This document shows, piece by piece, positions 7,668 through 36,902 of a stretch of 56,912 bases of DNA. The number at the start of each line of letters is the position of its first letter. Position 1 is the stretch's first letter. Source of the DNA: a virus; the IMG/VR virus record IMGVR_UViG_3300030117_007306, positions 1 through 56,912 of that record; one strand, written 5' to 3'. The notes under the pieces are model-generated. The model saw only the letters and a program-made list of their open reading frames with translations. It was not told where the DNA came from and searched no databases. The position numbers and the translations under genes were made by a program.

Positions 7668-8413
7668 GTTACAGACTTGGCTTTCTTTTGGATTCTGTCG
7701 ATAATTTCGAAAGCCGTCAAACGAGGAATATCTTTGACGCTATTCCACTTTTTAGCATCATCGTTTTTCTCTGCTATCATTTTAGTCTTTACCTGCTCAA
7801 AAGTGATTCCATTCTCCTTCAGAATGGTAAGTAAGAATGAGTCTGGAGACATGGACACGGATGACTGAGAAGAGAATACTGCGCTAGGAATGGAAACTTT
7901 GCCGCTTGCCGCCTGCTTCCCTTTGCTAGGAGCAATTTCTTCTTTAGCTACGATATTGATCTTCAAGAAATTCCTTACGGCACGACAGAATGCTCTATTT
8001 TCAGCAATAGCGGCTAAATAAATCTGGCCAAAGCCTTCAGTATTGTTTAGCCCTGCATCAGCAGTGCCTTCAAAATATACATCTTCACCATCAGTTTCGT
8101 AATTACCAGCCCAAGTAATACCGCATTTCATACAAACATACTCTGGAGAAGCGGTAACGATATCGTACTTTACAGACTTAATACCTCTCGTTTGAGCCAC
8201 ATCTTTTAAGCCTGCTAGGAGAATAATTAAATCTTTGTCTTTTAACTTGGTGACATCTGTTTCAGAAGTATTGTCTCGGTTAGGAACGATGTGATCATTC
8301 TTTACCATTTTTCTCCAGTCAATTAAACCGTCCTCTTGGTAGCTGTACTTAACACCTTCAAGTAGTCCGTGCTCGTTCCTCTTTACTGTTTTTGGCGGTG
8401 TGTTTTTTGCCAT
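7664..8413 (-). CDS. Candidate ssDNA-annealing protein (Rad52/ERF-like)
   Basis: 249 residues. I see a conserved-looking core: LIDWRKMV near 30, LAGLKDVAQTRGI near 66, ADAGLNNTEGFGQIYLAAIAENRAFCRAVRNFL near 117-150 (helix rich in Ala, Arg, Asn), then a low-complexity Ser/Lys linker and a C-terminal helical domain. The pattern of a beta-rich N-domain followed by a helix of the AENRAFCRAVR kind resembles phage Rad52-fold annealing proteins, but I cannot prove it. A CMCG...W pair could bind metal. It has its own CMAGAA-class promoter 9 nt before the ATG. Confidence 0.4.
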   Translation of the reverse strand: MAKNTPPKTVKRNEHGLLEGVKYSYQEDGLIDWRKMVKNDHIVPNRDNTSETDVTKLKDKDLIILLAGLKDVAQTRGIKSVKYDIVTASPEYVCMKCGITWAGNYETDGEDVYFEGTADAGLNNTEGFGQIYLAAIAENRAFCRAVRNFLKINIVAKEEIAPSKGKQAASGKVSIPSAVFSSQSSVSMSPDSFLLTILKENGITFEQVKTKMIAEKNDDAKKWNSVKDIPRLTAFEIIDRIQKKAKSVT

Positions 8414-8422
8414 ACGTCGATA

Positions 8423-8451
8423 AGCCTACGGTAATTCTTGCCCAAAGTCAA
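8423..8451 (-). promoter_or_regulatory. Promoter of the 8413 gene, CMAGAA class, short leader
   Basis: Leftward TTGACT (8451..8446), spacer with CAAGAA at promoter positions 12-17, TAGGCT (8428..8423), 9 nt to the ATG. Confidence 0.75.
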
Positions 8452-9633
8452 CTACTTTTTTTCAACAAAATAAAAATGATCTTTTTCCTCCCAAAAATCA
8501 TCGTGATCAATAATTTGCATAAAAGGGTGATCGAAAGAAGAAACTGGCTGGTCTACCGCTACTGACATTTTACTGGCGTACGCTTTGCCATTATGTATTA
8601 AAAATTTGTTAGATTTAAAAAATATTTTTTTCTTATTTATATTTTTTATTTCTTCTATATCTTCAAATTTTATGCGAGGTATGATGTTTATAGGCTTGTC
8701 TATATCTAAAAAATTTATTTTATAGCTGTCGACTTTTTCTTTCTCCTGCTTGCTGACTAAACCTATATTTATACCATTTTGGATGCAATAAGATACGAAA
8801 GAAACATCGTGATTATCATCTAGGTAATAAACAAGTTCTACTATTCTGTTTTTGTATTTTAAAATAATATCCTGTGGAATTGGCTTATCTGTAATTACAG
8901 AGCAGGAACAAATCTCAAGCTGTTTGATCAAATTATCTAAATTAAAATTGTAGTCAAGGTGAACGATCAGAGACTCCACCCCCAAAGCTTTTATGTCCTG
9001 TATAGGATTAGATAAAGAAGATTCTATCCTTCTGTTTTGGTAAAGCGGGCCGACTCTCAACGTGCTAAAAGCAAAGGAATGAGGCCTGCCTAAAAAAGAT
9101 AGTATCGACTCACCTATTTTTTCAGGCTTTATGTTATTTATAGTTTTAGGATTTTCATCCGGATTAAAACTTGGCTTTTTGACATTGCCTTTAAAAACTC
9201 CTACTTCGTCTTTATTGCTCCAATAAGGCTTAAACTGATCATAGAAACAGTTAGAAAACAAACTTACTATATTTTTATTATAATGAGAAGCAATTTGTAA
9301 AGATAAATTATTGCAGGTGATGTGAAGCGCAGAGTCTCTTATCACATAGGCCTTTTGGTTGAAATCAGTTTGCCCTAGAGCGATATAGCAGCCCGGTATT
9401 GGCGTATCGTCTTTGTCTCCAAGTAAAACTAGAGTAACCCCCATTTGCTTTAGCATTGGCGAGATAAAGTCGACGACCATAGACCAGTTGTCGTATTTAG
9501 CTGAAGATGAATCCGCTGATATATCAAGAGTAATATATTTCCCTTCGATGGCCATAGGGAAATATTTTTCATATATGAAAGGACGATCTATTTTTAGATT
9601 GTCCTGTAAGGCATAAGATTCTAAAATGTGCAT
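8452..9633 (-). CDS. GT9-like glycosyltransferase C-terminal half plus extra domain
   Basis: 393 residues. The first 180 align by eye with the 182-residue protein at 36903..37451 (both begin MH-LE-YAL, share GK/G-NFNQ/DFNQKA, and SLQIASHYNKNIVSLFSN against PAHLASCFEIPSVIVYSH). This is the second Rossmann half of heptosyltransferase-type GT9 enzymes. The remaining 200 residues are a domain I do not recognise. Its ATG lies 13 nt inside the end of the upstream gene, whose C-terminus is the GT9 N-terminal half, so the two halves of one enzyme are made from overlapping frames. Confidence 0.7.
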   Translation of the reverse strand: MHILESYALQDNLKIDRPFIYEKYFPMAIEGKYITLDISADSSSAKYDNWSMVVDFISPMLKQMGVTLVLLGDKDDTPIPGCYIALGQTDFNQKAYVIRDSALHITCNNLSLQIASHYNKNIVSLFSNCFYDQFKPYWSNKDEVGVFKGNVKKPSFNPDENPKTINNIKPEKIGESILSFLGRPHSFAFSTLRVGPLYQNRRIESSLSNPIQDIKALGVESLIVHLDYNFNLDNLIKQLEICSCSVITDKPIPQDIILKYKNRIVELVYYLDDNHDVSFVSYCIQNGINIGLVSKQEKEKVDSYKINFLDIDKPINIIPRIKFEDIEEIKNINKKKIFFKSNKFLIHNGKAYASKMSVAVDQPVSSFDHPFMQIIDHDDFWEEKDHFYFVEKK

Positions 9634-11534
9634 AAGTAATCCTTGTCTATAACATCGTTCATATTATGAATATAATTAGAAAATTTTTGAGTTGTTAAAT
9701 AAGGGGCAAAAACGATACTGAAATATTCTTTACTCTCTCCCGCTCCTTCTAAACTTAAAACATTGTCAAAAGATTCGGAGTAAGGAATTACTTTATGAAC
9801 GTAATCATTTCCGTTCAACAAAGCAAAATTCTCCGGTTTTGTAGAAACGTATAGATTATGGTCTTTGTATTTATTTTTTATAGACTTAAACAAAGAAGTC
9901 GATAAGAACACATCTTTGGAAGACCCCGGCATAACAAATAATAGTCTTTTACCCTCATCATCTTTGTCGACAATATCTTCTATCTTTACAGGAAAATGTT
10001 TATCATTGTGTTCTTTAGCAACTTTACGAAAATAATCCTCAATACTTTTTCTATCTACTTTATTAGATATTTGCTGCATCCAATATTTGTAACCATCATC
10101 ATGAATGTTATTATCTGTGTTAAGTATTTTTTTATACAATGCTAAAATCCACTCTGAGTCGTCCGCTATGTTTTCTACGTACGCATCAGGGTAGTTTCTT
10201 TTTTGCTCTTCTTTTGTTTCTTCAAAGTTGTAGGTTGCCGCTGGAGCATTATCTATAAAGTCTTCAAATATTTTACCAATAACCTCAACTGAAAACCCAT
10301 CTATGACCCACTGCCTAGCCATTTTGCCCATAGCTTTGAGCTCATCTTTAGGCATATAATAAACCTTGAGTAAGTTATTGTATATAGACTCTGGACAAGT
10401 AGAAGCTTTGATAAACTCCGTTTGATGTTCTATATACTTGCTCCACTCAAGAGATATAGATCCCGAGCCTTCCTCGCACTGCTCTTCGCCACAACTGTAA
10501 TTAGTTACTAATGTTACTAACTCGGTAAGTTTTGCTTCTTGTATAGGTATTTCCTGCCCGCCACTTGTAAACGGATGGCAGTAAACATCCATTAAATTAT
10601 AAATTTCATTTAACTGCACCTCAGAGACACCACCTCCCACGCTGGTAGTGTTCATACTTTTTTCTTTACCACAAATATCGCAGTTCTGTTCTTGCCCTAC
10701 AAATGGTTTAACTTTATATCCATAACAAGAGTTGCAGTAGTAAGTCGTTAGAATATCGTCTTTGTTTACTTTGTGTTCGTCGGCCAGTTTATGAATATTC
10801 CATCCCTCTCCCCAGTGAGTATGTAGTAGCAGCTTTGCTTTAGGAACGTCCTTCTGGAACTTTTTAAAGCCCTCCATCAAATTGGGGACAGACTTTCTTA
10901 GCTGATTGCGAAAAACAAACCCAACGATATAGTCGTCATCAGATATATTGTTATTTGCCCTTAACTGCTTCCTTTTTTCATCATCTAATCTATAAAAATT
11001 ATCAGTTTCGAGGCAGCCATGTACAGTTTTTACATGGTTATGACCTTTCTCATGCAGTGTTTTAGTTGCGAAATTACTCCATATCCAATAATTTTTTATT
11101 TTCGGAGCCTTTTCAACCGCAGAAGGCAAAATGGGCAAAGAGTCTAGGGTTGTCCAAATAACAGAGCTAATCTCGTTGAACCAAGGCTTGTCTATGGCAA
11201 AATCAACCCCCCAAATATCTTGCACTGCAATATAGACATCTGGCTTTTCCTGCTTGACTACATGGTCAATAAGGTAAGACCCATAACTAGCCATTCTAGC
11301 TTGACCGGGGTCTTTGTTTAGTTGAGCTAATTGATTCTGATCGTCCGGCAAGGTGCCGACAGACTTCCAAGGCGTTCTCTGTAAAGCTGGGCTTGAATAA
11401 GCGTTGCCACAACAATAACTAACTATATCATATTTTCCTGTCTTGTATAAATAAGAAAGAAGAGCTTTAGTGTTTCTACCAAAGCCCGTCTTAGCTAAAG
11501 CCGAGTCTGACTGGAATAATACTTTCTTCTTCAC
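9621..11534 (-). CDS. GT4-type glycosyltransferase fused to a GT9 N-terminal half
   Basis: 637 residues. The N-terminal 450 look like a GT4/GT1-type GT-B enzyme (VIWTTLD, RKSVPNLMEGFKKF, and the nucleotide-sugar region HPFTSGGQEIPIQEA). A zinc-ribbon insertion CNSC...CDIC interrupts the GT-B fold near residue 265. The last 110 residues (LLFVMPGSSKDVFLSTSLFKSIK) match the separate 119-residue protein at 37438..37797, the N-half of a GT9 enzyme. The GT9 C-half follows in an overlapping frame. Probably a bifunctional glycan-building enzyme of the cytoplasm. Confidence 0.75.
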   Translation of the reverse strand: MKKKVLFQSDSALAKTGFGRNTKALLSYLYKTGKYDIVSYCCGNAYSSPALQRTPWKSVGTLPDDQNQLAQLNKDPGQARMASYGSYLIDHVVKQEKPDVYIAVQDIWGVDFAIDKPWFNEISSVIWTTLDSLPILPSAVEKAPKIKNYWIWSNFATKTLHEKGHNHVKTVHGCLETDNFYRLDDEKRKQLRANNNISDDDYIVGFVFRNQLRKSVPNLMEGFKKFQKDVPKAKLLLHTHWGEGWNIHKLADEHKVNKDDILTTYYCNSCYGYKVKPFVGQEQNCDICGKEKSMNTTSVGGGVSEVQLNEIYNLMDVYCHPFTSGGQEIPIQEAKLTELVTLVTNYSCGEEQCEEGSGSISLEWSKYIEHQTEFIKASTCPESIYNNLLKVYYMPKDELKAMGKMARQWVIDGFSVEVIGKIFEDFIDNAPAATYNFEETKEEQKRNYPDAYVENIADDSEWILALYKKILNTDNNIHDDGYKYWMQQISNKVDRKSIEDYFRKVAKEHNDKHFPVKIEDIVDKDDEGKRLLFVMPGSSKDVFLSTSLFKSIKNKYKDHNLYVSTKPENFALLNGNDYVHKVIPYSESFDNVLSLEGAGESKEYFSIVFAPYLTTQKFSNYIHNMNDVIDKDYLCTF

Positions 11535-12019
11535 TGATTATTTTTAGCGGCAAGACTTTTGGCTATAGCTTCATTATTCTCTTTTATAGACGAAGATGAG
11601 TATATACTCAAAGCTGTCAGAAGAAACTGTTTTAGAAATTTGGACTCTCCAAAAGTAAATCCAATGGAATAACTTTTCTTTTCTCCATCCTTCGGCATTT
11701 TAGTTAGAGTGAAAGCAAATCCATCCTTCTTATCGTCCTTAATCTTTGGTTTAAAAGAGAAAGAAGTATTCTCCTTTGGAGTCTTGTGAAAACTAGAGAA
11801 TTCTCTACCGCTTTCGATGCAGTCAATAAAAGAACCGATTTCAGCAGGAGTAAACTTACAAGCAGAGCGAGTTTTGGTATCGAACTTGCCCTTCGAGTTC
11901 TCAGCGTCCCAACTTAACTGCTTAAGGAGCTGGATATAAAAAGACTTATCGTTTGTGTTGTAAGAAAAGCTACAACAACAACCAGAATTCCATTGGTTCG
12001 GCTTGTAAAAGTGTATCAT
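11531..12019 (-). CDS. Conserved-looking phage protein, unknown
   Basis: 162 residues beginning MIHFYKPN with a Cys-rich CCCSF, followed by a beta-rich body (SFIDCIESGREFSSFHKTPK, GFAFTLTKMPKDGEKKSYSIGFTFGESKFLKQFLLTAL). The strand-strand-helix repeats recall small ssDNA/RNA-binding folds such as PurA or Whirly, but this is only an impression. A consensus promoter lies 11 nt upstream, and the stop overlaps the ATG of the glycosyltransferase. Confidence 0.55.
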   Translation of the reverse strand: MIHFYKPNQWNSGCCCSFSYNTNDKSFYIQLLKQLSWDAENSKGKFDTKTRSACKFTPAEIGSFIDCIESGREFSSFHKTPKENTSFSFKPKIKDDKKDGFAFTLTKMPKDGEKKSYSIGFTFGESKFLKQFLLTALSIYSSSSIKENNEAIAKSLAAKNNQ

Positions 12020-12030
12020 AACCGCCCTCT

Positions 12031-12059
12031 ATTATAGAGAAAAAGAGCAATTATGACAA
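12031..12059 (-). promoter_or_regulatory. Sigma70-like promoter of the 12019 operon
   Basis: Leftward TTGTCA (12059..12054), 17-nt spacer, TATAAT (12036..12031), 11 nt to the ATG. It overlaps the last codons of the polymerase gene. Confidence 0.75.
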
Positions 12060-14714
12060 ATTTTTCTCATCATTAGTTAGTTGGCCCAGCTTCATATATA
12101 TCTTTGAACCTTGCTCGGTAACATAATTACCAAACACTCCGTCGTCAGCTTTCATACCCTTAACTAAGACTACGTCTTTTTTATCCGGAAGCCTGCCTTT
12201 ATTGTAATCTATGCAGCTTTGTATACTGTTACCTCTTTTACTGTTGAAAAGCAGCACATCGATTATCCCAGTTTCGTCAGATACTTCAAACTTTATGTAC
12301 TCATTACCTTTTTGAGATACCTTAACTCCTGTCGAATCTATTATAGTGCCAGCAAAAGCGACCTTCGTTCTTGGTCTAGAGTTTTTGACTTGAGATATCT
12401 GCACGAGCTCTGGATTCCTATTTACGAAAATATCTCTTATCGACACACCATGAGTATACCCTAATAATTCATTTTCATAATACCAATTAGCAAAATCTTC
12501 ACTCCTACTATTTATATCATATATTTTTTTGTATCCAGCAAACCTTTTTCTCATAGTTTCAATTCTGGTATCTTTAATATATCTCTTACCCTCGTCATCA
12601 ACTTTCACTTTCATTTCGTTAATGACTTTGATTAGATCTTGCTCTCCTTCTTCTGCGAATTTTAAAGCTATCAACCTTTCTCTTGGAGTCAAAATTTTCC
12701 AAAGCTGACATTCAACTACTAGGCGGCTTCTGCTTGAACTATCACCCACGTCCAAAGCCCCAGCTTGAATCAAAGCGGATAAAGCCCCTAAGTTAATGCC
12801 CGCCTCTGTAGAGGCTTGAAAAACCTGAAACTTATTGGATGCACTGTCTCTAAAATGACTAAACTTTTCAAGAGCTGACGTAGATATACCTTTTATAGAG
12901 GAAAGACCAAACCTTATGTTGTCGCCTTCAATAGTAAAATCATCTTCAGATTTTATCACGTCCGGCCTTAAAAGTTCTATATTGAAATGAACTAGCTCCT
13001 TATGGATTTTTGATATCTCAGCGATAGGATCTGGTTCAAATTTGCTCATTTGCAGCAGAGCTAGAAAAAACTCTTTTGGATGATTAAATTTTAAATAAAC
13101 CGTAGCCGCAGCCAAAGCAGCGTAAGCTATCGAGTGAGATTTATTAAAAGAATAGTTGGCTGAATCCTCAAGGATTTGCCAAAGTACATCGCCAACTTCT
13201 TTGTCAAGATTGTTCTGCTTGATTTTATCTTTAATTTTTTTCTTCCACTTTTTAACTTCGTTTACTTTCTTCTTGCCCACAATGCGTCGTAACAACTCCG
13301 CTTCGTCAAGAGTAAAGCCAACTTTGTGAGCCATCTTCATCATCTGCTCTTGGTAGAGACAAACGCCTCCAGTAGCTCCTAAGATATCATCAAAAAATGG
13401 ATGTATTACATCGTAGGTATCATTATTAGTATAACTAGCATATTGCTCGGTAAATTGCATAGCCCCCGGTCTAGCCAAAGCCAAAACGGCGCTAAGCTCC
13501 TCTAAGCTCTTAGGTTTTACCTTTTTGCAGACTTCGTAGTTAGCTCTAGCTTCAACTTGAAATATACCTTGTGGTTGTTTTAAGTCATAAAGATTTTGAT
13601 AAATACTTTCGTGGTCTAAATCTATATCTTCCACATTTATACCAATAAATTTACAAGCTTGATCTACGACAGAAACAGTCCTTAGTCCGAGAACGTCGAG
13701 TTTGACATTGAACATTTGAGACCAATCCATATTGTAGGACGATATGTTCTCTTTGTCAGAATCAAGTTCTATTGGGCAGCTTTTGGTAATATTGTCGTAC
13801 GATAATAGTATCGCTGATGGATGAACACCTTTATTTTTTACTAAACCTTTAATTTTTTGAGCTGTGCCGTATGTTCGGGGATTGTTATCACACCACTCTT
13901 TAAATTCTGATACTTCATCATATGCCTCCGAGATGTCTTTGACTTGCCCGAAAACTTTTGGTATAAGAGAAGAGACTTGGTTCATTTCCGTCTCAGATTT
14001 ATCTTCAACAGTCTTTCCGCACTCTTTCATGACCAACTTGCCACTGAGGGTGTTCAGCGTTCTTATTTTAGAAGTCTTACCTTGGAATTCTTTCTCTAGA
14101 TATTTGAGAACGTCTTTGCGTTTGTAATAACATACGTCCATGTCTATATCACACATTAAAGAACCGTCCAGATAAGTAACTCCATCTACAACTTTCTTCT
14201 TTGCGCGTATTTTGGATACAAACCTCTCAAAAAACAATTCATACTTTACAGAGTCTATTTTGGTAACGCCAAGTAAATACAGAACAAAGCTGCCAGCCGC
14301 AGAGCCACGACCTAGACCAACTGGAATATCTGATACTTTACAAAAATGAATTACTTTCCAAACTAAAAGAATATAATCAACAAACCCAAGTTCTTTGAGG
14401 ATATCTAGCTCATAATATATTCTATCTACATATTTTTTATGTTCGGCCGAACCTTTTTTTATGTTGAGCTTCTTAAAGCCTTTCTGACAAAGCGCTATGA
14501 GAAAATCGTAAGTATTTTTTACTTTCTCAGGATTATCTATGAGGTCTAGATATTCAGGCTGAATGTCAAACTTTGGTAAACGTACGCCGTTGATATTCAA
14601 CTTTAAAGCGTTAAAGCTATCGTTGAAATCAGTCTTTCTTTTTTCTAGGCCTTCCTCGCTTTTTCTTGGCGGGCTTTGGCGGCTCTGACTTTTGTTCTCC
14701 TTTACTGTCACCAT
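12051..14714 (-). CDS. dnaE: DNA polymerase III alpha subunit (DnaE-type), catalytic core without PHP domain
   Basis: 887 residues. C-family polymerase: GRGSAAGS at 135-142, CDIDMD with the two metal aspartates at 189 and 191, the third aspartate in VKLDVLGLRT near 340, helix-hairpin-helix region near 600 and a C-terminal OB fold near 790 (FAGTIIDSTGVKVSQKGNEYIKF broken here for length). The N-terminal PHP domain is absent and is encoded separately at 16039..16815; 258 plus 887 residues is about the length of E. coli DnaE. The ATG used overlaps the AT-hook gene by 86 nt in another frame; a later TTG near 14598 is an alternative start that keeps all conserved residues. Confidence 0.9.
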   Translation of the reverse strand: MVTVKENKSQSRQSPPRKSEEGLEKRKTDFNDSFNALKLNINGVRLPKFDIQPEYLDLIDNPEKVKNTYDFLIALCQKGFKKLNIKKGSAEHKKYVDRIYYELDILKELGFVDYILLVWKVIHFCKVSDIPVGLGRGSAAGSFVLYLLGVTKIDSVKYELFFERFVSKIRAKKKVVDGVTYLDGSLMCDIDMDVCYYKRKDVLKYLEKEFQGKTSKIRTLNTLSGKLVMKECGKTVEDKSETEMNQVSSLIPKVFGQVKDISEAYDEVSEFKEWCDNNPRTYGTAQKIKGLVKNKGVHPSAILLSYDNITKSCPIELDSDKENISSYNMDWSQMFNVKLDVLGLRTVSVVDQACKFIGINVEDIDLDHESIYQNLYDLKQPQGIFQVEARANYEVCKKVKPKSLEELSAVLALARPGAMQFTEQYASYTNNDTYDVIHPFFDDILGATGGVCLYQEQMMKMAHKVGFTLDEAELLRRIVGKKKVNEVKKWKKKIKDKIKQNNLDKEVGDVLWQILEDSANYSFNKSHSIAYAALAAATVYLKFNHPKEFFLALLQMSKFEPDPIAEISKIHKELVHFNIELLRPDVIKSEDDFTIEGDNIRFGLSSIKGISTSALEKFSHFRDSASNKFQVFQASTEAGINLGALSALIQAGALDVGDSSSRSRLVVECQLWKILTPRERLIALKFAEEGEQDLIKVINEMKVKVDDEGKRYIKDTRIETMRKRFAGYKKIYDINSRSEDFANWYYENELLGYTHGVSIRDIFVNRNPELVQISQVKNSRPRTKVAFAGTIIDSTGVKVSQKGNEYIKFEVSDETGIIDVLLFNSKRGNSIQSCIDYNKGRLPDKKDVVLVKGMKADDGVFGNYVTEQGSKIYMKLGQLTNDEKNLS

Positions 14715-14904
14715 CTTCTTTTAATATGTCCTCTAGTCTATCTTTTAAAACTTTTAAAGTGTCTTTACTCTCTTTTTCAAATCTATAAAAGAAATCTAAC
14801 TTGTCCTGCTTATCTCCTTTTCTGAGAATAACTATAGCGTAATCAACATCAGACTCCTCTGAGAGCTTGTCTATTATATCATATGCAAAATCCATGCTGG
14901 GCAT
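14629..14904 (-). CDS. Small protein with C-terminal AT-hook
   Basis: 91 residues: an acidic helical N-terminal 60 residues and a Pro/Lys tail ending in KKRGRPRKKKD, a classic AT-hook (GRP core flanked by basic residues) that binds the minor groove of AT-rich DNA. Sitting between the exonuclease and the polymerase core and overlapping the latter, it may tether or regulate the replisome. A consensus promoter ends 7 nt before the ATG. Confidence 0.65.
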   Translation of the reverse strand: MPSMDFAYDIIDKLSEESDVDYAIVILRKGDKQDKLDFFYRFEKESKDTLKVLKDRLEDILKEDGDSKGEQKSEPPKPAKKKRGRPRKKKD

Positions 14905-14911
14905 ATGAATT

Positions 14912-14940
14912 ATTATACGACTAAACTCTGCTCATCTCAA
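14912..14940 (-). promoter_or_regulatory. Promoter of AT-hook gene and polymerase core, leaderless
   Basis: Leftward TTGAGA (14940..14935), 17-nt spacer, TATAAT (14917..14912), 7 nt to the ATG, so transcription should start at or next to the A of the ATG. The -35 lies inside the end of the exonuclease gene. Confidence 0.75.
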
Positions 14941-15565
14941 TTTTAAGTTTGTTCCAAACTTTTAAATTTAACTCTAAATCATTTATTGCGTCGTGGAGCG
15001 TTTCGTAATTATGTTCGATGTTGTAATATTTGCCTAGCTCCGTTAAAGACGTTCTCACTCCTCTAACTCTATTGGTCAACATTCTGTATTGATAGTCGAA
15101 AAAGTTCTCTTCTTGCTGTTTGTAATAGTTCTCCGTTCTGATTCCTCGACCTACTGACAATGTATCTACGCACTTTTCAAACAGATGATCGTAAGGCTTA
15201 GAGTTCATTTTGCACCAGTCTCTAATTAAGTACATGTCGAATCCTAAAATATTATGTCCAACAATATAATCACATGAATCTAACCACTGATAAACAGTAG
15301 GGAATATCTCTGGTTCTGGTTTGGCAAGTTTGTTAAATTTTCTCTTATCAAATCTAGTAATCCTTGCCGCCTCGTCAGAAATACTTAAACCACAGTCCCA
15401 CTTGACCATCTCGTCAAATCTATTCTCTATTCTCCCTTTTACGACCCGAATCATGCCCACCTGCCAAGGTCGATTGTTGTAAAAGTTTAAATTTACATTA
15501 AAGGTCTCCAAATCCATGAAAACCAGTTCTTTACTGGAAATAGTTTTAAAAAAGTCGTTATCCAT
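14921..15565 (-). CDS. DnaQ-like 3'-5' exonuclease (DEDDh)
   Basis: 214 residues. ExoI FMDLETFN near 15, ExoII VGHNILGFDMYLIRDW near 101, ExoIII HDAINDLELNLKVW near 186: the DEDDh proofreading pattern. Placed between the PHP fragment and the core of the polymerase, it is the obvious proofreading subunit, and the PHP fragment seems to lack its own nuclease metal ligands. It overlaps the upstream nuclease gene by 8 nt. No clamp-binding motif was identified. Confidence 0.85.
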   Translation of the reverse strand: MDNDFFKTISSKELVFMDLETFNVNLNFYNNRPWQVGMIRVVKGRIENRFDEMVKWDCGLSISDEAARITRFDKRKFNKLAKPEPEIFPTVYQWLDSCDYIVGHNILGFDMYLIRDWCKMNSKPYDHLFEKCVDTLSVGRGIRTENYYKQQEENFFDYQYRMLTNRVRGVRTSLTELGKYYNIEHNYETLHDAINDLELNLKVWNKLKIEMSRV

Positions 15566-16052
15566 TTAATTCTCTAGCTGGTACGTTATAGCAATCTGCT
15601 CTGAAATAAAAACTCCTATTGCGAGGAGACTCTGGGTCGTAATCGCCCTTTTTATAAAAGTTAGCCTTTTGGTAAAACTCGGACTTATCTATTTTGCCAA
15701 GATACCAAGCATAACTCAAATCCTTCATTACGCTAACGAAGGCATACTCATCGCAGTCTTGATTAGGGTTGAAATCTGCTACTGTGCAGTTGTAGTTTAA
15801 CTGAGGAGCTACAGTTCTTTCCTTAGTTTTTACATCGACAGTGAAATGACCAGAACAGGGATTATGATATACTAAATCGTAATCGTAGGTATCTTTTATT
15901 TCGCCGTCCAAGACGTGTTTGACAACCTCTTCGCCGATGTAGGCCACTAAGGCCCCCTCTCCTTTTCTGATAGAATTATTGAGTAAGGGTAGCTTGTCAG
16001 CCCTTTCCTGCGCTCTGTTAATTAATTGCTCTGATAATTTAAATCTTTTCAT
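15558..16052 (-). CDS. PD-(D/E)XK-like nuclease candidate
   Basis: 164 residues from the ATG at 16052, preferred over an upstream in-frame ATG at 16094 because it overlaps the stop of the PHP gene by only 14 nt and starts MKRFKLSEQLINRA. The sequence has a plausible PD-(D/E)XK core: GEE near 40, then YDYDLV and FTVDVKTKER (D-x9-like acidic plus VK). A restriction-like or Holliday-junction-type nuclease acting in replication or recombination is suggested by fold pattern and neighbours only. Confidence 0.5.
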   Translation of the reverse strand: MKRFKLSEQLINRAQERADKLPLLNNSIRKGEGALVAYIGEEVVKHVLDGEIKDTYDYDLVYHNPCSGHFTVDVKTKERTVAPQLNYNCTVADFNPNQDCDEYAFVSVMKDLSYAWYLGKIDKSEFYQKANFYKKGDYDPESPRNRSFYFRADCYNVPARELNG

Positions 16053-16815
16053 ACCAGCTTTCAAAACTAAATTCATTTGAACACATATGGTCAAAGTTAG
16101 GTTTAGCTAAAGTCCTCTTCGCTCTGCCGGGCGCAGAGTCAGAAATGCATCTAAATGTAAGGTAAGCAGGAAAATCCTTTTTGTTTTTATAGTAAACACT
16201 ATGAACTTCTTGGGTTTCATATTGATCCTTACAATAATTTAAAACATGCTTTCTTAAAGATTGGTCAAAAGGTAAATCGTTCGATTCTAAGAAAAACAAA
16301 GGAGAAAAATTATGGAAATCTGGAATAATATTACCCATCGCCAATTTGTTTTTATGTATAAATGAATCATAAAAAGGAACAACGAAAGTTAAATCATTAT
16401 CGTCCCAATACTCCCATAAAGAATCATAGTCTATCCTCGGGGCATAGTAAAAACCATCTGTAGACGCTTTCGACGAAATTTTTAATAACCTCTCATAACC
16501 CTTTTTATTTTTGCAAAATATGACACATTTAGATTCGTGCGAAGAATAATCTTTCTGTTTGTACGTCATATCTTCACAAACAGTTAATCTAAGACCGAAC
16601 CTCAAATCTATACCAGCCTCCAAAGCATTACTGTACGCCTCCAAGAAACCAGTCATACTATCCTCCACTAAATAGAGATGATCTAACTTAGCCTCAGAGC
16701 AAATATCTATTATTGAATCCGGACCAACACCATCAGAAGAACCCAATGCTTCTAAAGTAAGTATTGATTTACCTATGCTGTAATGTGACTTAAATAAAGG
16801 TAAAGCCCCGTTCAT
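16039..16815 (-). CDS. Separate PHP domain of DNA polymerase III alpha
   Basis: 258 residues. It resembles the N-terminal PHP domain of DnaE from its first strand (LPLFKSHYSIGKSILTLEAL) to its last conserved block (AKPNFDHMCSNEFSFESW, which in DnaE leads into the polymerase core). The usual first metal motif HxH is lost (position held by FKSH), so it is probably a structural, not catalytic, PHP domain. Two genes and the AT-hook gene separate it from the core, so the replicative polymerase must assemble from two chains. A CMAGAA-class promoter lies 6 nt before the ATG, making this mRNA leaderless. Confidence 0.8.
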   Translation of the reverse strand: MNGALPLFKSHYSIGKSILTLEALGSSDGVGPDSIIDICSEAKLDHLYLVEDSMTGFLEAYSNALEAGIDLRFGLRLTVCEDMTYKQKDYSSHESKCVIFCKNKKGYERLLKISSKASTDGFYYAPRIDYDSLWEYWDDNDLTFVVPFYDSFIHKNKLAMGNIIPDFHNFSPLFFLESNDLPFDQSLRKHVLNYCKDQYETQEVHSVYYKNKKDFPAYLTFRCISDSAPGRAKRTLAKPNFDHMCSNEFSFESWYEKI

Positions 16816-16821
16816 CTCCGC

Positions 16822-16850
16822 ATTATACTGAACTTCTTGTGCCTTGTCAA
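16822..16850 (-). promoter_or_regulatory. Leaderless promoter of the polymerase PHP operon, CMAGAA class
   Basis: Leftward TTGACA (16850..16845), spacer with CAAGAA at promoter positions 12-17, TATAAT (16827..16822), 6 nt to the ATG. Best overall match to both the sigma70 and the CMAGAA consensus in this window. Confidence 0.85.
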
Positions 16851-17827
16851 GAAAAAATATCTATGTACTCGCCGCTCCCTGCGTGTCTAGGGCAGCCATC
16901 ATACTTTTGCTTTTCTATCTTCTGGCCTTTTATTTTAATTTTTTCCAACTCAACTTTTTTGAAGCTAGAAGATACCTCTTTGCCATCCTTGTCTATTAAA
17001 GAGAAATAGTCATAGCCATCAATATAAGGGCAACGCCACTTTCCCACTTTGCATAACCAAGAATTTTTCTTATTGTCGGCAGCGTAATTTGAACAAGCGT
17101 CTTCTTCTGTGAAATTGTTTATCTTAAAAAAAGCATAAGATAAGTAATATTCAAATCCTTTTAACTGTTCTTCGGTAAATTCCAACTGTTGAACTGGGCT
17201 TCTAGGAAATCTTAAAAATAAAAATTCTGCCGTAGGCTTAAAACCCGGCCAATGTTTTTTAGCGGCCAAGGTATAGGTCATGGCTTGAACATTTGAGTGC
17301 AGTTCTTCGCCTCTAAATTTATATTTACTACTTTTATAATCTACAATTTTTATTTTTTTACCACGTTTATAAGCTATAGGTTTATCGATGAATCCTCTTA
17401 TTTTATACTCAGGATTTTTTGATTCTAGTAAAAACTCAAACTCTGGATTATCTACTTTGCCTCCCCGCCCAAAGAAATCATATTTTAATCCGACCATAAT
17501 CATATCCCACACTAACTCTGTATTTTCTTCGTTAGTCATAGGCAGATCGGAGGACTTCTCCATCTGTCGCAAATGCTTCATAACTAGTCTAACGATAGCG
17601 GGGCTTCCGTCTATCGTGTTTGCTTTTATGATTTTATCGTAGTGCTTCTTATGCTTCTTCTTGACGAGCATCTCAAATACTAAATGACACACAGTGCCTC
17701 GCTGTGCGCCCTCATTTTGCTTCTGCGGCAGTTTTAGTATATAGTTGCACCAATACGACCAAGAACACGTTTCGAGCGTTTTTAGCCTTGATGCTGATAA
17801 AATTTTTTCTTTTAATTTTTCTGCCAT
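16847..17827 (-). CDS. RecB/Cas4-like PD-(D/E)XK nuclease
   Basis: 326 residues. PDDEXK_1-type pattern: SASRLKTLETCSWSYWC at the start, His in GTVCHLVFE near 48, Asp in GFIDKP near 148, IVDYKSSK near 162 with the catalytic D and K, and QAMTYTLAA near 181. Cysteines at 21, 259, 266 and 312 could form an iron-sulphur cluster as in Cas4 and AddB, though spacing is unusual. Likely a 5'-end or recombination exonuclease of the replication module. It overlaps the primase end by 16 nt. Confidence 0.75.
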   Translation of the reverse strand: MAEKLKEKILSASRLKTLETCSWSYWCNYILKLPQKQNEGAQRGTVCHLVFEMLVKKKHKKHYDKIIKANTIDGSPAIVRLVMKHLRQMEKSSDLPMTNEENTELVWDMIMVGLKYDFFGRGGKVDNPEFEFLLESKNPEYKIRGFIDKPIAYKRGKKIKIVDYKSSKYKFRGEELHSNVQAMTYTLAAKKHWPGFKPTAEFLFLRFPRSPVQQLEFTEEQLKGFEYYLSYAFFKINNFTEEDACSNYAADNKKNSWLCKVGKWRCPYIDGYDYFSLIDKDGKEVSSSFKKVELEKIKIKGQKIEKQKYDGCPRHAGSGEYIDIFS

Positions 17828-18699
17828 TCTAAAATTTCTTTTTTATCCATGCATCCGAAGTCATTTTTACAAGGTAGTTTAATTCTAACAACGCCTTCAT
17901 CGAAATGCTTATTCAGAGTTTGACTTAACTTAACGGCAGCGTCATTGCCCGCTCCTTTATAGCCGTCATTATTTAAAGCTATAATAATTTCGTCAGGGTC
18001 TAAACTTACGATAGTAGATAAAAGCTGACGACTTGCGTGAAGTCCAAACATAACGATAGTGTTTTTTATTCCAGCTTCCCACAAAGCTAACATGTCGCCT
18101 ATGCTCTCAATTAAAATTATCTGTCTAGTATCTTTTACTATATTATAGTTTATTTGAAGCGGATATCTCCAAACTGATTTAGGCCCTAAGTGCTTCCACT
18201 TTAGAGGGCTCTTCCCTGTGACATCTCTGCCGGTAACGCCTATTAAAGTTTTAGATGAGTTGAAAATGGGAAAAATGTACCTGTCTTTAAAAGGGCCCTC
18301 TGTGCGAACACCACCTTCAAAAACAGATAAAGTATTTGAACTTATCCCTCTGTTGTTCCAGTAAGTAAAATCTGTGACTAAATGCAAAAGCATTTCTTTT
18401 GGCAAAGCTTTGACATGTTCTATCTTGGAGGTTTTTCTAGGAGATCTTTCAAATTTATATTTATTAACAATAACTGCTCTAGCTTCCTCAATATTAGACA
18501 AGCCTAGAGTCAACCGAACAAGCTCCTCAAAAGGGCCAGCTTTGTTTTCTTTAAAATCAGTCCACCACCCAGTATCTTTATATACCCTCAAAACAGAACT
18601 GTTATTTGAGTCTCTGTAAAGAGGAGTCATTCTAAACTCTCTCCCGTGGTCTTGAATTTTATAACCCAAGTCTAAAAGTACGTCTCTTACGTCTGCCAT
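17812..18699 (-). CDS. DNA primase (TOPRIM, DnaG-like)
   Basis: 295 residues. The C-terminal half has the TOPRIM fold: LIESIGDMLALWEAG with Glu198, and IIALNNDGYKGAGNDAA with Asp245. The N-terminal 60 residues (MTPLYRDSN...GWWTDFKENKAGPFEELV) align with the DnaG-type zinc-binding domain but carry no Cys, so zinc has been lost, as in some phage and PLP-like primases. It follows DnaB helicase by 3 nt, so the two are a co-translated primosome. Confidence 0.8.
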   Translation of the reverse strand: MADVRDVLLDLGYKIQDHGREFRMTPLYRDSNNSSVLRVYKDTGWWTDFKENKAGPFEELVRLTLGLSNIEEARAVIVNKYKFERSPRKTSKIEHVKALPKEMLLHLVTDFTYWNNRGISSNTLSVFEGGVRTEGPFKDRYIFPIFNSSKTLIGVTGRDVTGKSPLKWKHLGPKSVWRYPLQINYNIVKDTRQIILIESIGDMLALWEAGIKNTIVMFGLHASRQLLSTIVSLDPDEIIIALNNDGYKGAGNDAAVKLSQTLNKHFDEGVVRIKLPCKNDFGCMDKKEILEWQKN

Positions 18700-18702
18700 G
18701 AA

Positions 18703-20223
18703 CTATATTTCAACATCGCTGTCGCCAGCAATTCTTTGTTCTCCTACTCCAAATCTTTGAACAATATCATCAACTACGTTCTGCAAAGAGCCTCGACTTT
18801 GAACTGAGAAATTATCGACTTCAAAATTAAGATAGTTTTGAACCCACTCTTCTCTATGTACTTCAGTTTGATTGTGCTCTTCTATAACTGGTCTACGTAT
18901 AAGGTCTTGATGCCCTGCCGCATCGCGGCCTTGATATCTAGTTTTTATAGGTAAAAGTTTATGAGTACCAAATTGTGGGCCATCCATAGCTATTTCGTCA
19001 GCAGTTTTTCTTCTGAATATAGCAACAAAACTTGCAAACCATTGCAATCTGTCAGACAAAGATATAGCAGAGCTGTCATCAACTAAAGTTCTACTATTTC
19101 TATTATGACTTTCTCCAGACCTATTCATCTGCATAGCTGTTATAATTGGCGCAGAAAGTTCTTCAGCGATTCTTTTAAGTTTATCTATTTTATCTCCAAT
19201 GGCTTGATGCTCGGCCCAATTTCTATCGACCTTTTCTCCGGTTAACTTAACGTAATCATAAGCGATAACACATTTATTTCCCCTGCCTACATATTTCATA
19301 TGCCAACGCCGAATAATAGAACAAACTTCATCGATTGTTTTATTTCGTACATGGTAATGAAAATACTCTTTGTTGTCAAATCTACCTTTGTTTTCTTTTT
19401 GGTACTCTCTGACTTTTTCGTACATGGATTTGTTTTTTCTCCAGTTGCCGCTTTCTAAATACCAAAGAGGCACACCGGTTTGAGCCGCAGCCATACGATT
19501 TCTTATTTCTTTAGTAGACATCTCAGTGTCTAAAACTAAAGCGGGAACACCATTTAGTACAGAAGTGTTAAGGCATACATCATTTATAAAAGTCGTTTTA
19601 CCTTGAGCTGGCCTAGAAACTATAGCATAAATATTACCTTCTCTCAAACCTCCAAAAAGTCTATTGAATTCTGGATAAGGAGTGCGAAGACCATTTTCGT
19701 CAATTGGGTTTTCTCCTGCTTTTTCTATATCGTCAAAGAAATCTTCGAAAATATTAACTGGCTCATCATCTAATTCATAACTGGAAACTTTATCAGAATA
19801 TAAAGAGTCTGATTTAGAAATTATTTCATTAATAGTATCATTGCCACACTCGCTCACGTATTGCTGAATTTCTTCAGTAGTGTCTCGTATATCTCTCCTT
19901 ATTCTATACTTAATTAAAGAGGTGGCGTACTTTACTATTGCATTTTTTTTAGGAGCGTTGAGAGTTATAGCATCAAGATATTCATGTATACTTATTTCAT
20001 CTTTTGCAGTTATACCTATATTTATAATTCTTTCAGAGACAATAACTTTATCTACATGTTCTCCTGCGATATAAAGGTTTCTTATAACAGAATATATTGA
20101 TTGATGGACTTCGTTAAAGAAATCCCCGACGCTAAGAAAAGCGTCTAATTCTGCTACTACATCTGGATTTTTGAGAAGTCCGCCCAAAACGTACTTCTCC
20201 ATCTTAATGCTGTATAGTGACAT
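18703..20223 (-). CDS. dnaB: DnaB-like replicative helicase
   Basis: 506 residues, normal for DnaB. N-terminal helical domain (EKYVLGGLLKNPDVV, residues 9-110), linker helix, then the RecA-like motor with Walker A SRPAQGKTTF at 203-212, LVLDTEMS as the H1a-type motif near 231 and a late ITAMQMNRSG near 367. Sits between the tubulin-like GTPase and primase with gaps of 3 nt on each side, so it is part of one operon (21778 to 16847). Confidence 0.9.
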   Translation of the reverse strand: MSLYSIKMEKYVLGGLLKNPDVVAELDAFLSVGDFFNEVHQSIYSVIRNLYIAGEHVDKVIVSERIINIGITAKDEISIHEYLDAITLNAPKKNAIVKYATSLIKYRIRRDIRDTTEEIQQYVSECGNDTINEIISKSDSLYSDKVSSYELDDEPVNIFEDFFDDIEKAGENPIDENGLRTPYPEFNRLFGGLREGNIYAIVSRPAQGKTTFINDVCLNTSVLNGVPALVLDTEMSTKEIRNRMAAAQTGVPLWYLESGNWRKNKSMYEKVREYQKENKGRFDNKEYFHYHVRNKTIDEVCSIIRRWHMKYVGRGNKCVIAYDYVKLTGEKVDRNWAEHQAIGDKIDKLKRIAEELSAPIITAMQMNRSGESHNRNSRTLVDDSSAISLSDRLQWFASFVAIFRRKTADEIAMDGPQFGTHKLLPIKTRYQGRDAAGHQDLIRRPVIEEHNQTEVHREEWVQNYLNFEVDNFSVQSRGSLQNVVDDIVQRFGVGEQRIAGDSDVEI

Positions 20224-20226
20224 CTA

Positions 20227-21498
20227 CTATTTATATTTCCTGTCTACTTCAAAGAAGTAATCGAACAGGTTTTCGGGAGCCTGTAATCCTCCGATAGCTG
20301 TGTAAACAGCTAACCCCTGCTTTGCTCCTGTATAAATGCCGCGATGGACAGTAGAGCCTCCTCCCATCATACGGCTAAGCTGTTCAAAGCCGTGTTCTAA
20401 ACTAGACTGAGGGATATTGTCAAGAGAATTTTTATCTCCGATAATGACGCAAGCTGCGACATCACCAGTAGAAGCATCAACTCCCGCTAAGATATTTTTC
20501 CTAAGATTATCTCTGACGGCATAAGAGATTCCCGTCTCTGTAGTGTCTTTGATCGGCGTAGCGCCAAACATAATTATTCCAGAGGAAAAGATTGTATCTA
20601 AGTCCGCTTTATCGAAAGTTGTATAGGCTGATTCCTTTGCGGATATCTTATTGAACAAGTGGAAGATAGAACAGATACTATTATTAGCCGTACTCCAAAA
20701 CTGATTGACACTTAGTTTAGGATAAAGTTGTTTTATTTTTTCGTTATCCAAGATAATCAGAGGAGATAGCACTCCTGCTTTTTGAGCATCAATTACTTTG
20801 CTGATAGTCTTTTTCGAATTGTCTTGGACTTTAATTCCCTCCGCTCTTGTCGGTAACGCTAAAACACATCCAACTTTTGCATCAGTATCTTTAGTCTCCT
20901 TTCCTAGAGACTGATTTAGATCGTGACATATATCAATAACTCGAGCTGCTCCTCCAGCACCAGTCCCCCCGCCAGCGCCAGCGCAAACTAAAACTCTTTC
21001 GTAGCTTGTCCCAAAAGTCCTTTTTAGAAAGTCAAGGATGTCTTCATATCTAGTACGAAATACCTCGTCTGCCGCATCTGGATTCTTTCCAGCGCCTCCG
21101 TCACCAATTAAAAGTTTGTTCTCTTCTGGTATGTTTATTAAAGAGAGGTCTTGTTTTGCTGTGTTGATAACACCAACTCTACGATACCCCAAATTCCAAA
21201 AAGACTCAGCTAGTCTCGAACCACCTTGGCCTACTCCTACAATAGCGAAGTTAAAAGCGGCGTCTTCAAAAATGTCTTTAACGCTATCCTCAATAGGCTC
21301 ATCATCTGGCAAGGGTATATCTGGTAAATCAATACCTAAATCATCCACGCCTAAAGCTTCTACTGGAGCAGGGACTTCCGGCTCTAATGGCGCAGAGTCT
21401 GGAGCTTCTCCCGCCGTCAAAGAAGCAGGCGGTTCCAACCCCGGTAAAGGAGTTTCTTTTTCTTTTGGATAATAATCTGAAATATTTGTATCACTCAT
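20227..21498 (-). CDS. Tubulin/FtsZ-superfamily GTPase
   Basis: 423 residues. After a 78-residue Pro/acid-rich, probably disordered N-terminus come GVGQGGSRLAESFW (88-101), the GTP signature AGAGGGTGAGG (173-183), and a T7-loop-like FDKADLDTIF whose acids would trigger GTP hydrolysis in the next subunit. This is closer to FtsZ/CetZ in motif spelling than to PhuZ. Phage tubulins position replicating DNA or phage nuclei; this one is encoded directly upstream of helicase and primase, which fits a role in moving or organising replication. The function is inference. Confidence 0.85.
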   Translation of the reverse strand: MSDTNISDYYPKEKETPLPGLEPPASLTAGEAPDSAPLEPEVPAPVEALGVDDLGIDLPDIPLPDDEPIEDSVKDIFEDAAFNFAIVGVGQGGSRLAESFWNLGYRRVGVINTAKQDLSLINIPEENKLLIGDGGAGKNPDAADEVFRTRYEDILDFLKRTFGTSYERVLVCAGAGGGTGAGGAARVIDICHDLNQSLGKETKDTDAKVGCVLALPTRAEGIKVQDNSKKTISKVIDAQKAGVLSPLIILDNEKIKQLYPKLSVNQFWSTANNSICSIFHLFNKISAKESAYTTFDKADLDTIFSSGIIMFGATPIKDTTETGISYAVRDNLRKNILAGVDASTGDVAACVIIGDKNSLDNIPQSSLEHGFEQLSRMMGGGSTVHRGIYTGAKQGLAVYTAIGGLQAPENLFDYFFEVDRKYK

Positions 21499-23720: not shown

Positions 23721-24742
23721 AAAAGTATATCATTTTCTACCATACTTTCTACCATTCTGTCAAATGAAATTTTAGGTTGCCAGCCAAGTTCTTGCCTAGC
23801 TGGAGTGGAATCACCTAGAAGTAGATCTACTTCTGCTGGTCTGTAATATTTTTCATTTACTTCAGCCAGTATCGTATTTTCTTGATAAACTCTAAACTTT
23901 GCTTCTAAACCCTCTCCACTCCAAAGCCCCGGAATACCAGCGGAAGAAAAAGCTGACTGCACAAAATCTCTTACCGAGTGAGTTTCGTTGCTCGATAAAA
24001 TATATTCTTTTGGCTCGTCTTGGTTCATCATTAACCAAACGCCTTCCACGAAATCTCTACTGTCACTCCAGTCTCTTCTTGACTCGATATTTCCTAATTG
24101 TAATGGTTGAAAAAGTATTTTTTTATCTAAGGCGGTTTTTATCTCGCCAACTTTATCAGTAATTTTTCTAGTAACAAATTCTCTTCCTCTTTTAACCCCT
24201 TCGTGATTAAAAAGTATAGAATGGATAGCGTAAATATCGTAAGACTCTCTGTAGACTTTTACCATGTGCCTAGCAGAAGCTTTAGAGGCTCCATAAGGAC
24301 TTCTTGGCTTGATTGGATGCTTTAAGTCCTGTGGGCTATAGTCTACATCACCAAATTCTTCAGAAGAGCCTGCGCTGTAAAATCTACAGTCAGGCTTAAA
24401 TTTTCTAATAGCTTCTAAGAAGCGGATTACTCCGCCAGTATTTACATCTAGAACACTCAGAGGCATATCCCAACTAACTCCGACAAAAGAATTGGCTCCA
24501 AAGTTAATAATGTAATCCGGCAAAAGCTCTTTTACCAATCTGTCTATACTTGAGGAATCTGTAAGATCTCCGTCTACGAGTTCAAAATTATCATTGTTTT
24601 CAAAATCGCAAATATTCTCATGGTTAGGAGAGCCTGACCTACGAATCATTCCATAAATTTTAAATTTACCCAAGCCAAGCAAATAATCAGCCATGTTTGC
24701 GCCGTCTTGGCCTAAGATACCTGTAATTAATACTTTTTTCAT
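23699..24742 (-). CDS. gmd: GDP-mannose 4,6-dehydratase
   Basis: 347 residues, normal for Gmd. SDR Rossmann start ITGILGQDGANMADYLL, catalytic SSEEFG and YGASKASAR (Tyr-x3-Lys), then FNHEGVKRGREFVTRKIT and GNIESRRDWSDSRDFVEG, which are diagnostic of Gmd. It converts GDP-mannose to GDP-4-dehydro-6-deoxymannose, precursor of fucose, rhamnose or perosamine. With the DegT aminotransferase (25664..26776) and the GDP-fucose-synthase-like SDR (31163..31960), two possible next steps are present. Confidence 0.9.
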   Translation of the reverse strand: MKKVLITGILGQDGANMADYLLGLGKFKIYGMIRRSGSPNHENICDFENNDNFELVDGDLTDSSSIDRLVKELLPDYIINFGANSFVGVSWDMPLSVLDVNTGGVIRFLEAIRKFKPDCRFYSAGSSEEFGDVDYSPQDLKHPIKPRSPYGASKASARHMVKVYRESYDIYAIHSILFNHEGVKRGREFVTRKITDKVGEIKTALDKKILFQPLQLGNIESRRDWSDSRDFVEGVWLMMNQDEPKEYILSSNETHSVRDFVQSAFSSAGIPGLWSGEGLEAKFRVYQENTILAEVNEKYYRPAEVDLLLGDSTPARQELGWQPKISFDRMVESMVENDILLWQRKRS

Positions 24743-24753
24743 ATTTTTATTTT

Positions 24754-25671
24754 TTATTCTTTTGCAAAATACTTTTCATATTTTTTAAAATTATCAATTA
24801 AGTATTTCGGGTGAGTTTCTGATGTAAAGTTATTATTAATTTTTAAGTTATAATCTCTGTAGACAGTTTTTACAGCCTCCTCCTTATCTTTCATTTCAAA
24901 GTAAGGGTCTCTCCCTGCCGCCACATCTCTAGAGTGAGCCCAGCTCTTGTATTTCTTCAAAGCCTTTTCTCCGTCCGTGTCATCCAAAAAAGTAAAATGC
25001 CATCCGCCATTAGCCAAAGCTTCGTGGCTGCATATAGCAAAAACTCTAAACTCTGAGATTTTATGAATACTTAAATTCTCTAAAGTAGTAACTAGTCCGC
25101 AAATATCTTTTTTGCTAAAAAGATTAAACTTAAAAGCATAGAGGTCTAACTCAAAATGAATTACTGCATCCATGTAGACGGGACTTTTATAGTGATGAAA
25201 AACTTTAGAATATAAGCTATACTTTTCTTTTTTGTCAAAGATGGCTCTGGCTTTAGCAAAAGCCTCTTCTCTAAAAAGCTCGTCTAAGCCACCAAAGAAA
25301 ATTAAAGATTCCGGTTCGGGATTATTGTCTCTTAATACTTTTACTGCATATTCGTGTTGGAAATTTTCTCGACCCCAATCCTCACCGTTACAGTTAGGTT
25401 GGTTCTTGTGAATGTTGGTAAAATCTTCAGAAGCTAAGTTGGGATACTTACTCATTTCCTCAGAGAACGAGTCGAATTTAGCATAAATTATTTTGTCTCC
25501 GTATTTTTTAAACCTTTCATGGTCAAAATTATAAGACTTTTTTAACCCAGTGTGAGTTTCTCCGGCTTCAACAATAATAAATTGGTCAACAAAATTTTGC
25601 TCTTGATTTATTTTTAATTCCAATAAATCGTTCTCGTTGAAGAACATTATGCAGCTGTATACTTTACTCAT
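24754..25671 (-). CDS. Glycosyltransferase family 17-like
   Basis: 305 residues. The N-terminus (CIMFFNENDLLELKINQ, then VDQFIIVEAGETHTGLKKS) matches the pattern of GT17 beta-1,4-mannosyl GlcNAc transferases and their bacterial relatives, followed by FFGGLDELF as a possible DxD-like metal site and a WHFTFL motif. Cytoplasmic, no membrane segment. Acceptor unknown; probably one sugar of the glycan made by this island. Overlaps the aminotransferase end by 8 nt. Confidence 0.7.
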   Translation of the reverse strand: MSKVYSCIMFFNENDLLELKINQEQNFVDQFIIVEAGETHTGLKKSYNFDHERFKKYGDKIIYAKFDSFSEEMSKYPNLASEDFTNIHKNQPNCNGEDWGRENFQHEYAVKVLRDNNPEPESLIFFGGLDELFREEAFAKARAIFDKKEKYSLYSKVFHHYKSPVYMDAVIHFELDLYAFKFNLFSKKDICGLVTTLENLSIHKISEFRVFAICSHEALANGGWHFTFLDDTDGEKALKKYKSWAHSRDVAAGRDPYFEMKDKEEAVKTVYRDYNLKINNNFTSETHPKYLIDNFKKYEKYFAKE

Positions 25672-28921: not shown

Positions 28922-28922
28922 T

Positions 28923-29363: not shown

Positions 29364-29380
29364 AATTTATAAAGTTATTT

Positions 29381-30058: not shown

Positions 30059-30059
30059 A

Positions 30060-31160: not shown

Positions 31161-31162
31161 AA

Positions 31163-32436: not shown

Positions 32437-32440
32437 TTAG

Positions 32441-33124: not shown

Positions 33125-33125
33125 T

Positions 33126-34121: not shown

Positions 34122-34129
34122 TCTTTATT

Positions 34130-36899: not shown

Positions 36900-36902
36900 T
36901 TA

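Follow-up and report, generated by a model that had tools for sequence, protein, structure and literature searches.

The window analysed here is the whole of the uncultivated virus record IMGVR_UViG_3300030117_007306, a stretch of 56,912 bases. Its minus strand carries a replication operon in which the alpha subunit of a DnaE-type DNA polymerase III (Pol III) is encoded as two chains, a PHP domain and a polymerase core, with the gene for a DEDDh exonuclease between them. An earlier note on this DNA had described a PHP-like protein of 258 amino acids (aa) and a core protein of 887 aa, separated by a nuclease, the exonuclease and an AT-hook protein, and these open reading frames (ORFs) were found where it had placed them. 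In the order of transcription, with the catalytic residues of the core, they are as follows.

16039-16815, minus strand: stand-alone PHP domain of DnaE-type Pol III alpha, 258 aa, metal site lost (PF02811, model, ligand alignment)
15558-16094, minus strand: small PD-(D/E)XK-like nuclease gene, 178 aa, a variable neighbour of PHP (D...DVKTKE motif, by eye)
14921-15565, minus strand: DEDDh 3'-5' exonuclease, 214 aa, RNase_T, DnaQ-like, predicted proofreader (PF00929, E 6e-14; phrog_192)
14629-14904, minus strand: small acidic/basic protein, 91 aa, with a C-terminal AT-hook KKKRGRPRKKK (sequence; no family match)
12051-14714, minus strand: DnaE core without PHP, 887 aa, with palm, thumb/fingers, helix-hairpin-helix and C-terminal OB domains
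14142-14150, minus strand: catalytic DxD of the palm, core D189 and D191, equivalent to E. coli D401/D403 by alignment
13695-13697, minus strand: third catalytic Asp, core D340 in the KLDVLGLRT block, the equivalent of E. coli D555

The ORF at 16039-16815 matches PF02811 with an expectation value (E) of 3e-13. Both chains match the DNA polymerase family phrog_405, the PHP chain at 62-229 and the core at 324-1082, and in the DnaE model TIGR00594 they cover 36-124 and 273-1022, respectively. A profile of 30 PHP relatives matched residues 52-252 of T. aquaticus DnaE (E 1e-10). The AlphaFold model of the PHP chain, which has a mean predicted local distance difference test score (pLDDT) of 89 and a predicted template modelling score (pTM) of 0.87, aligned over its whole length with T. 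aquaticus DnaE 5-258 (Z 23.8, root-mean-square deviation 2.6, 233 residues aligned). It also aligned with E. coli alpha 3-247 (Z 22.6) and M. tuberculosis DnaE 7-272, and its next-best structural matches were non-polymerase PHP proteins at Z of about 12. The ORF is the whole of the PHP domain that a Pol III alpha of DnaE type carries; family model, PHROG, profile and structure all align it with DnaE PHP.

The core matches PF07733 (DNA_pol3_alpha, E 2e-54), PF17657 (finger domain) and PF14579 (HHH_6). An OB domain is indicated by a weak PF01336 match at 787-853 and by residues 769-870 of the model, which match OB folds. A profile of 25 cores matched T. aquaticus 381-952 (E 1e-102) and E. coli 287-896, with E values ranging from 1e-88 to 1e-102. 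The core model (pLDDT 77, the palm weaker) aligns with E. coli alpha 270-910, with T. aquaticus 284-1122 and with M. tuberculosis from 297; its Foldseek template modelling scores are modest because parts of the palm are predicted at low confidence. Residues D189, D191 and D340 are invariant in 25 core relatives, and the DxD aligns to the MPDIDTDF block of T. aquaticus. The model PRK05673 was matched only up to 1025 of its 1146 positions, the core ending 20 aa past the OB fold, so that the tau-binding region is unmatched. With its annotated start codon (ATG at 14714), the core shares 86 nt with the AT-hook gene, and its first 25 or so residues are therefore uncertain. The polymerase is of DnaE type, since its OB domain lies at the C-terminus and there is no match to the PolC model; a PolC origin was ruled out by this OB position, by the lack of a TIGR01405 match and by the distribution of exonuclease, PHP and core over three ORFs.

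Mapped on the solved structures, the PHP chain corresponds to E. coli 3-247, T. aquaticus 5-258 and M. tuberculosis 7-272, and the core begins at E. coli 270, T. aquaticus 284 and M. tuberculosis 297. These ranges place the cut at the PHP/palm boundary, where about 23-26 residues are matched by neither chain, and they bear out the earlier statement that the break falls at the block leading into the core. The PHP chain has its own stop codon, at a median of 2 aa past the domain end. The core starts about 21 residues before its GVRLP block and has gained no replacement domain at its N-terminus.

The pieces of such a gene might be rejoined by an intron or a split intein before use, giving an ordinary fused DnaE. 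Splicing elements do occur among the relatives. Inside the core, locus L053 has a contiguous mini-intein (7950-10889) and L046 a split mini-intein over two ORFs (7968-11024), at the ANYSFNR/SHS site (...SFNR|CLS...SN|SHS), near the cyanobacterial DnaE split-intein site. In another phage, Alicyclobacillus phage KKP_3916 (L075), the DnaE gene is in fragments, and one of its exons adjoins a group I intron. At the PHP/core break, however, no intein half was found at the PHP or core ends across relatives; the short PHP tail and this absence rule out a split intein there, and the earlier note had likewise seen no intein motifs. An Rfam scan of the window for introns gave no match, and allowing E values of up to 1 brought out none at 12-17 kb. 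The same Rfam library is able to detect introns, because in KKP_3916 it picked up the group I intron, immediately ahead of an ORF that is a DnaE exon, and with this positive case the scans rule out an intron between PHP and core. The supposed intron would also have to span about 0.6 to 3.5 kb with the exonuclease gene always inside it. We therefore regard rejoining of the parts as highly improbable.

Other interruptions of DnaE were seen during this comparison. The core is also in two pieces in L087 and L231. In KKP_3916, DnaE extends over four ORFs, annotated as hypothetical, and the group I intron, at 10185-10518, immediately precedes one of the exons. In Rossellomorea phage phiT1 (L074) it consists of two ORFs separated by one of 49 aa, and the cut falls within the polymerase, directly past the block of the third catalytic Asp.

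The split was then followed across viral sequence. With proteins from the window and with profiles as queries, IMG/VR gave more than 200 loci, and contigs from bacterial and archaeal genomes gave 14 more, which are mostly phage-like contigs in metagenome bins; more than 500 PHP relatives were present among the matches listed. After removal of loci with identical PHP DNA, 138 distinct loci holding PHP, exonuclease and core remained. All 138 viral loci have the order PHP-exonuclease-core on one strand, with separate PHP and core ORFs and the exonuclease between, and an arrangement shared by so many distinct loci excludes chance. The PHP-to-core distance is about 0.6 to 3.5 kb, and where the locus is most compact all three genes almost touch or overlap. 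Contigs from metagenomes may contain errors, and an assembly error or the frameshift remnant of a fused gene was therefore considered; since 138 independent loci show the arrangement unchanged and have complete genes separating the two parts, this explanation is refuted and has practically no chance.

A tree of 62 cores separated 50 non-redundant split rows from 12 fused DnaEs (from phages, Enterobacterales, Acinetobacter and metagenome bins) by a fully supported branch; it is a quick tree, its split rows were picked by similarity to the query, and several of its fused rows are long-branched. A single fission event explains this separation. Fused DnaEs, which the earlier note had named as the observation that would count against a conserved split, were absent from the split clade among the relatives and found only in distant phages and bacteria. 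The DnaE of Lika is 1158 aa long, and those of gut phages are 1145-1176 aa. The idea that the DnaEs of Streptomyces phages (Likavirus) and gut phages also lack PHP proved wrong, the four gut phages having a PHP match in the core ORF. Ten records of 56-178 kb were each matched just once for the palm and once for PHP, which rules out another full-length DnaE, or another PHP, in any of the ten.

The earlier note had observed that the PHP chain lost the HxH of its metal site. This is true but understates the change. The published motif of PHP metal ligands is HHDHEH[C/H]DH (PMC12926913). In an alignment with fused DnaEs of gut phages that retain the site (HLHVH, LDG, TDH, GCE, H, SAC, NDxH), all nine ligands are replaced in the phage PHP chain, and a conserved FKSHYSxGRSILTL stretch occupies the former HxH position. 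The loss is common to the whole 30-member PHP family. Within this family 31 columns are invariant at identities down to 40%. Among close relatives the nonsynonymous divergence (dN) of PHP is 0.14-0.21 and the synonymous divergence (dS) is saturated, so that most pairs give no dN/dS ratio; the single computable PHP ratio is 0.07. By its sequence conservation, the PHP chain is under purifying selection and hence functional.

The exonuclease has the DxE...D...HxxxxD site, with D18, E20, D110, H191 and D196 invariant in 25 relatives, and its closest solved relative is the PolC exonuclease 2p1j. Its operon position predicts that it is the proofreader of the split polymerase. The AT-hook protein, which has no Pfam or PHROG match, is related to an 82-member cluster of ORFs from the gap between exonuclease and core; the AT-hook tail is present in the window protein but absent from some members. 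The small protein of this gap is possibly a polymerase subunit.

The gap between PHP and exonuclease is more variable. The 178-aa nuclease-like gene of the window has no Pfam family and no PHROG match, and it probably begins at the internal ATG at 16052, since this is where homologues start. Genes of this type account for 27 ORFs of the PHP-exonuclease gap; among the other types in the gap are matches to PF11645 (L008) and to phrog_18407 (L064, L179 and L106), examples being L008:1931-2320, L064:8732-9223 and L179:3634-4131. At this former domain junction, small PD-(D/E)XK-like genes from several deeply diverged families have thus accumulated, which makes the gap a hotspot. Mobile nuclease genes may have entered at the domain boundary and broken the DnaE gene. 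In L017, L037, L031 and L049 a nuclease-like domain is fused to the C-terminus of PHP itself. These fusions, together with the several deeply diverged nuclease families in the gap, would suit a PHP chain that has left the polymerase, keeping its fold for a new job, for example as a partner or carrier of the adjoining nucleases or as a DNA-binding or regulatory protein. Against such a departure, PHP, exonuclease and core keep their order in 138 of 138 loci whatever intervenes, PHP ends at the domain boundary in most relatives, and the core has acquired nothing in place of the lost domain ahead of GVRLP. We consider the departure unlikely.

The operon contains further replication genes. In transcription, the minus-strand order is tubulin/FtsZ-like, DnaB, primase, Cas4/RecB-like, PHP, small nuclease-like, DEDDh exonuclease, AT-hook, core and a 162-aa gene. 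The flanking genes are listed below.

20227-21498, minus strand: tubulin/FtsZ-family protein, directly before DnaB (PF00091, TIGR00065)
18703-20223, minus strand: DnaB-type replicative helicase (PF03796, PF00772; phrog_19, E 3e-58)
17812-18699, minus strand: DnaG/Toprim-type primase-like protein (PF13155, TIGR01391, phrog_47)
16847-17827, minus strand: Cas4/RecB-like PD-(D/E)XK nuclease of the same operon (PF12705, E 3e-20), upstream of PHP in relatives
11531-12019, minus strand: conserved gene, 162 aa, 3' of the core (no Pfam or PHROG match)

The 162-aa gene comes after the core in most relatives whose sequence extends there, and this position suggests a replication factor candidate, for example a single-stranded DNA-binding protein. 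The tubulin/FtsZ-family protein has 83-91% identity in relatives when near-identical relatives are set aside. Elsewhere in the window, positions 24000-39500 hold a long run of surface-glycan genes, including GDP-mannose dehydratase, DegT aminotransferases, glycosyltransferases and transketolase halves. One relative, L036, has a phage tmRNA upstream of its replication genes (1666-2070; Rfam RF00023, 131 bits).

The setting beside helicase and primase bears on whether the split polymerase is the phage's replicase. No B-family polymerase (PF00136) was found in 8 records of 117-203 kb, and this absence rules one out in these large records. In the search for a clamp, PF09116 and PF07068 gave no match in the 8 records but none in any control genome either, so this result is uninformative. 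An AAA protein of about 320 aa, present in 7 of the 8 records, looks RuvB-like by eye, with a winged-helix C-terminus, and was dropped as a candidate T4-type clamp loader for this appearance; no clamp loader was identified in the records searched. The core could instead be an accessory repair polymerase, with the host enzyme replicating the genome. That no clamp or clamp loader was recognised would fit this role, as would the group 2.2 jumbo phages, in which a minimal split Pol III alpha stands beside a B-family polymerase (PMC7824862). The operon shared with DnaB helicase and the primase-like protein, the lack of a B-family polymerase in the large records and the invariance of all catalytic Asp residues argue against it, and we think an accessory role quite improbable. 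We infer that the split polymerase is the phage's replicase.

Considering these results together, we give a probability of about 0.75 to a three-chain phage replicase that arose by a one-time fission of the gene at the PHP/palm boundary, with PHP docking in trans. In the ancestor of this lineage, which consists of aquatic tailed phages, the gene for a Pol III alpha of DnaE type would have been divided once, leaving one operon that encodes the polymerase core and a PHP chain without catalytic activity, always with the gene of the DEDDh proofreader between the two. Most probably, the separate PHP chain binds to the core in the place that its fused counterpart takes in DnaE, where it would stabilise the palm and may help to hold the exonuclease, and the three proteins would work with the phage DnaB and primase. 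PHP acting in trans, as the earlier note had proposed, is the best inference from these data. Studies of E. coli lend this picture plausibility. There, PHP is a major structural element although its metal site is partly lost; the unfolding of Pol III is cooperative, and mutations in PHP make the enzyme less stable and less active (PMC3666897). PHP is reported to be strictly conserved in bacterial replicative polymerases even with a dead nuclease site, and its non-enzymatic role is debated (PMC3666897).

Three points weigh against a three-chain replicase of this kind. The fusions of PHP to nuclease-like domains could reflect a second role of PHP. The sliding clamp family PF00712 was not found in 5 records, and the replisome is only partly described because no sliding clamp was identified. 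The window and all records are uncultivated sequence and possibly incomplete. A further, tentative idea, to which we give a modest chance, is that PHP has become a dissociable non-enzymatic scaffold linking the polymerase to its proofreader and, by fusion in some relatives, to a nuclease, so that a domain held to be obligatory in cis would have turned into an exchangeable replisome module.

The proposed three-chain replicase shares much with known systems. As in the DnaE Pol III alpha of E. coli (2HNH), T. aquaticus (2HPI) and M. tuberculosis (7PU7), the domains follow the order palm, thumb/fingers, helix-hairpin-helix and C-terminal OB, three catalytic Asp are present, and PHP has the same size and fold; unlike in these proteins, PHP is a chain of its own, the boundary gap of about 23-26 residues is present and the C-terminal tau-binding region is unmatched. 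The separate DEDDh proofreader resembles that of E. coli DnaE, which combines a degenerate PHP site with a separate epsilon (PMC3666897, PMC12926913); E. coli has lost some PHP ligands, whereas the phage PHP lacks all nine. Loss of PHP metal ligands is reported to accompany a separate proofreading exonuclease (PMC3666897, PMC12926913, PMC3919608). In PolC, the Gram-positive replicase, the exonuclease is likewise closely linked with PHP, and the nearest structure to the phage exonuclease in the Protein Data Bank is that of PolC. However, PolC is one chain with the exonuclease inserted in PHP and an N-terminal OB, whereas three genes and a C-terminal OB are found here.

Separate proteins for a phage Pol III alpha also occur in the group 2.2 jumbo phages (Iyer et al. 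2021, PMC7824862). There the cut lies inside the polymerase, between NTP-binding and template-binding parts, the genes are far apart, PHP is absent and a B-family polymerase is present, whereas here the core is intact, PHP is present and PF00136 was not found in 8 records. The fragmented DnaEs of KKP_3916 and Rossellomorea phage phiT1 similarly spread their coding sequence over several ORFs, but they are interrupted within the polymerase itself, and KKP_3916 at least has a group I intron. Cyanobacterial DnaE is likewise encoded by two genes through a split intein, and the split mini-intein of L046 lies near the same FNKSHS block; the PHP/core break, in contrast, has no intein and is at a different place. 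In BFVD, a 'PHP domain-containing protein' of Siphoviridae sp. ctLqe90 (A0A8S5Q1A1, 175 aa) is next by accession to a Pol III alpha (A0A8S5Q1A2, 536 aa), and these entry names and accessions suggest that it may be a second, independent stand-alone PHP. In the part of the literature that was covered, no C-family polymerase was found described with a conserved PHP chain that stands alone, and prior mention is possible.

The earlier note had called the replisome layout unusual for its trans-acting PHP and its external proofreading. External proofreading and a dead PHP site, both also present in E. coli DnaE, are ordinary for DnaE. What is unusual is that PHP, always in cis in bacterial replicases, is here encoded as its own conserved chain. 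For the large uncultivated phage lineage that carries it, the PHP-exonuclease-core arrangement offers a two-gene marker, and annotation pipelines may score the polymerase of this lineage as incomplete. Although detached and stripped of every metal ligand, PHP has been retained here by strong selection, and the genes of the proofreader and the polymerase invariably accompany it. Supplying this PHP in trans or leaving it out would show directly whether it stabilises the palm or recruits the exonuclease, a question that in bacteria needs mutations in one large cooperative protein.

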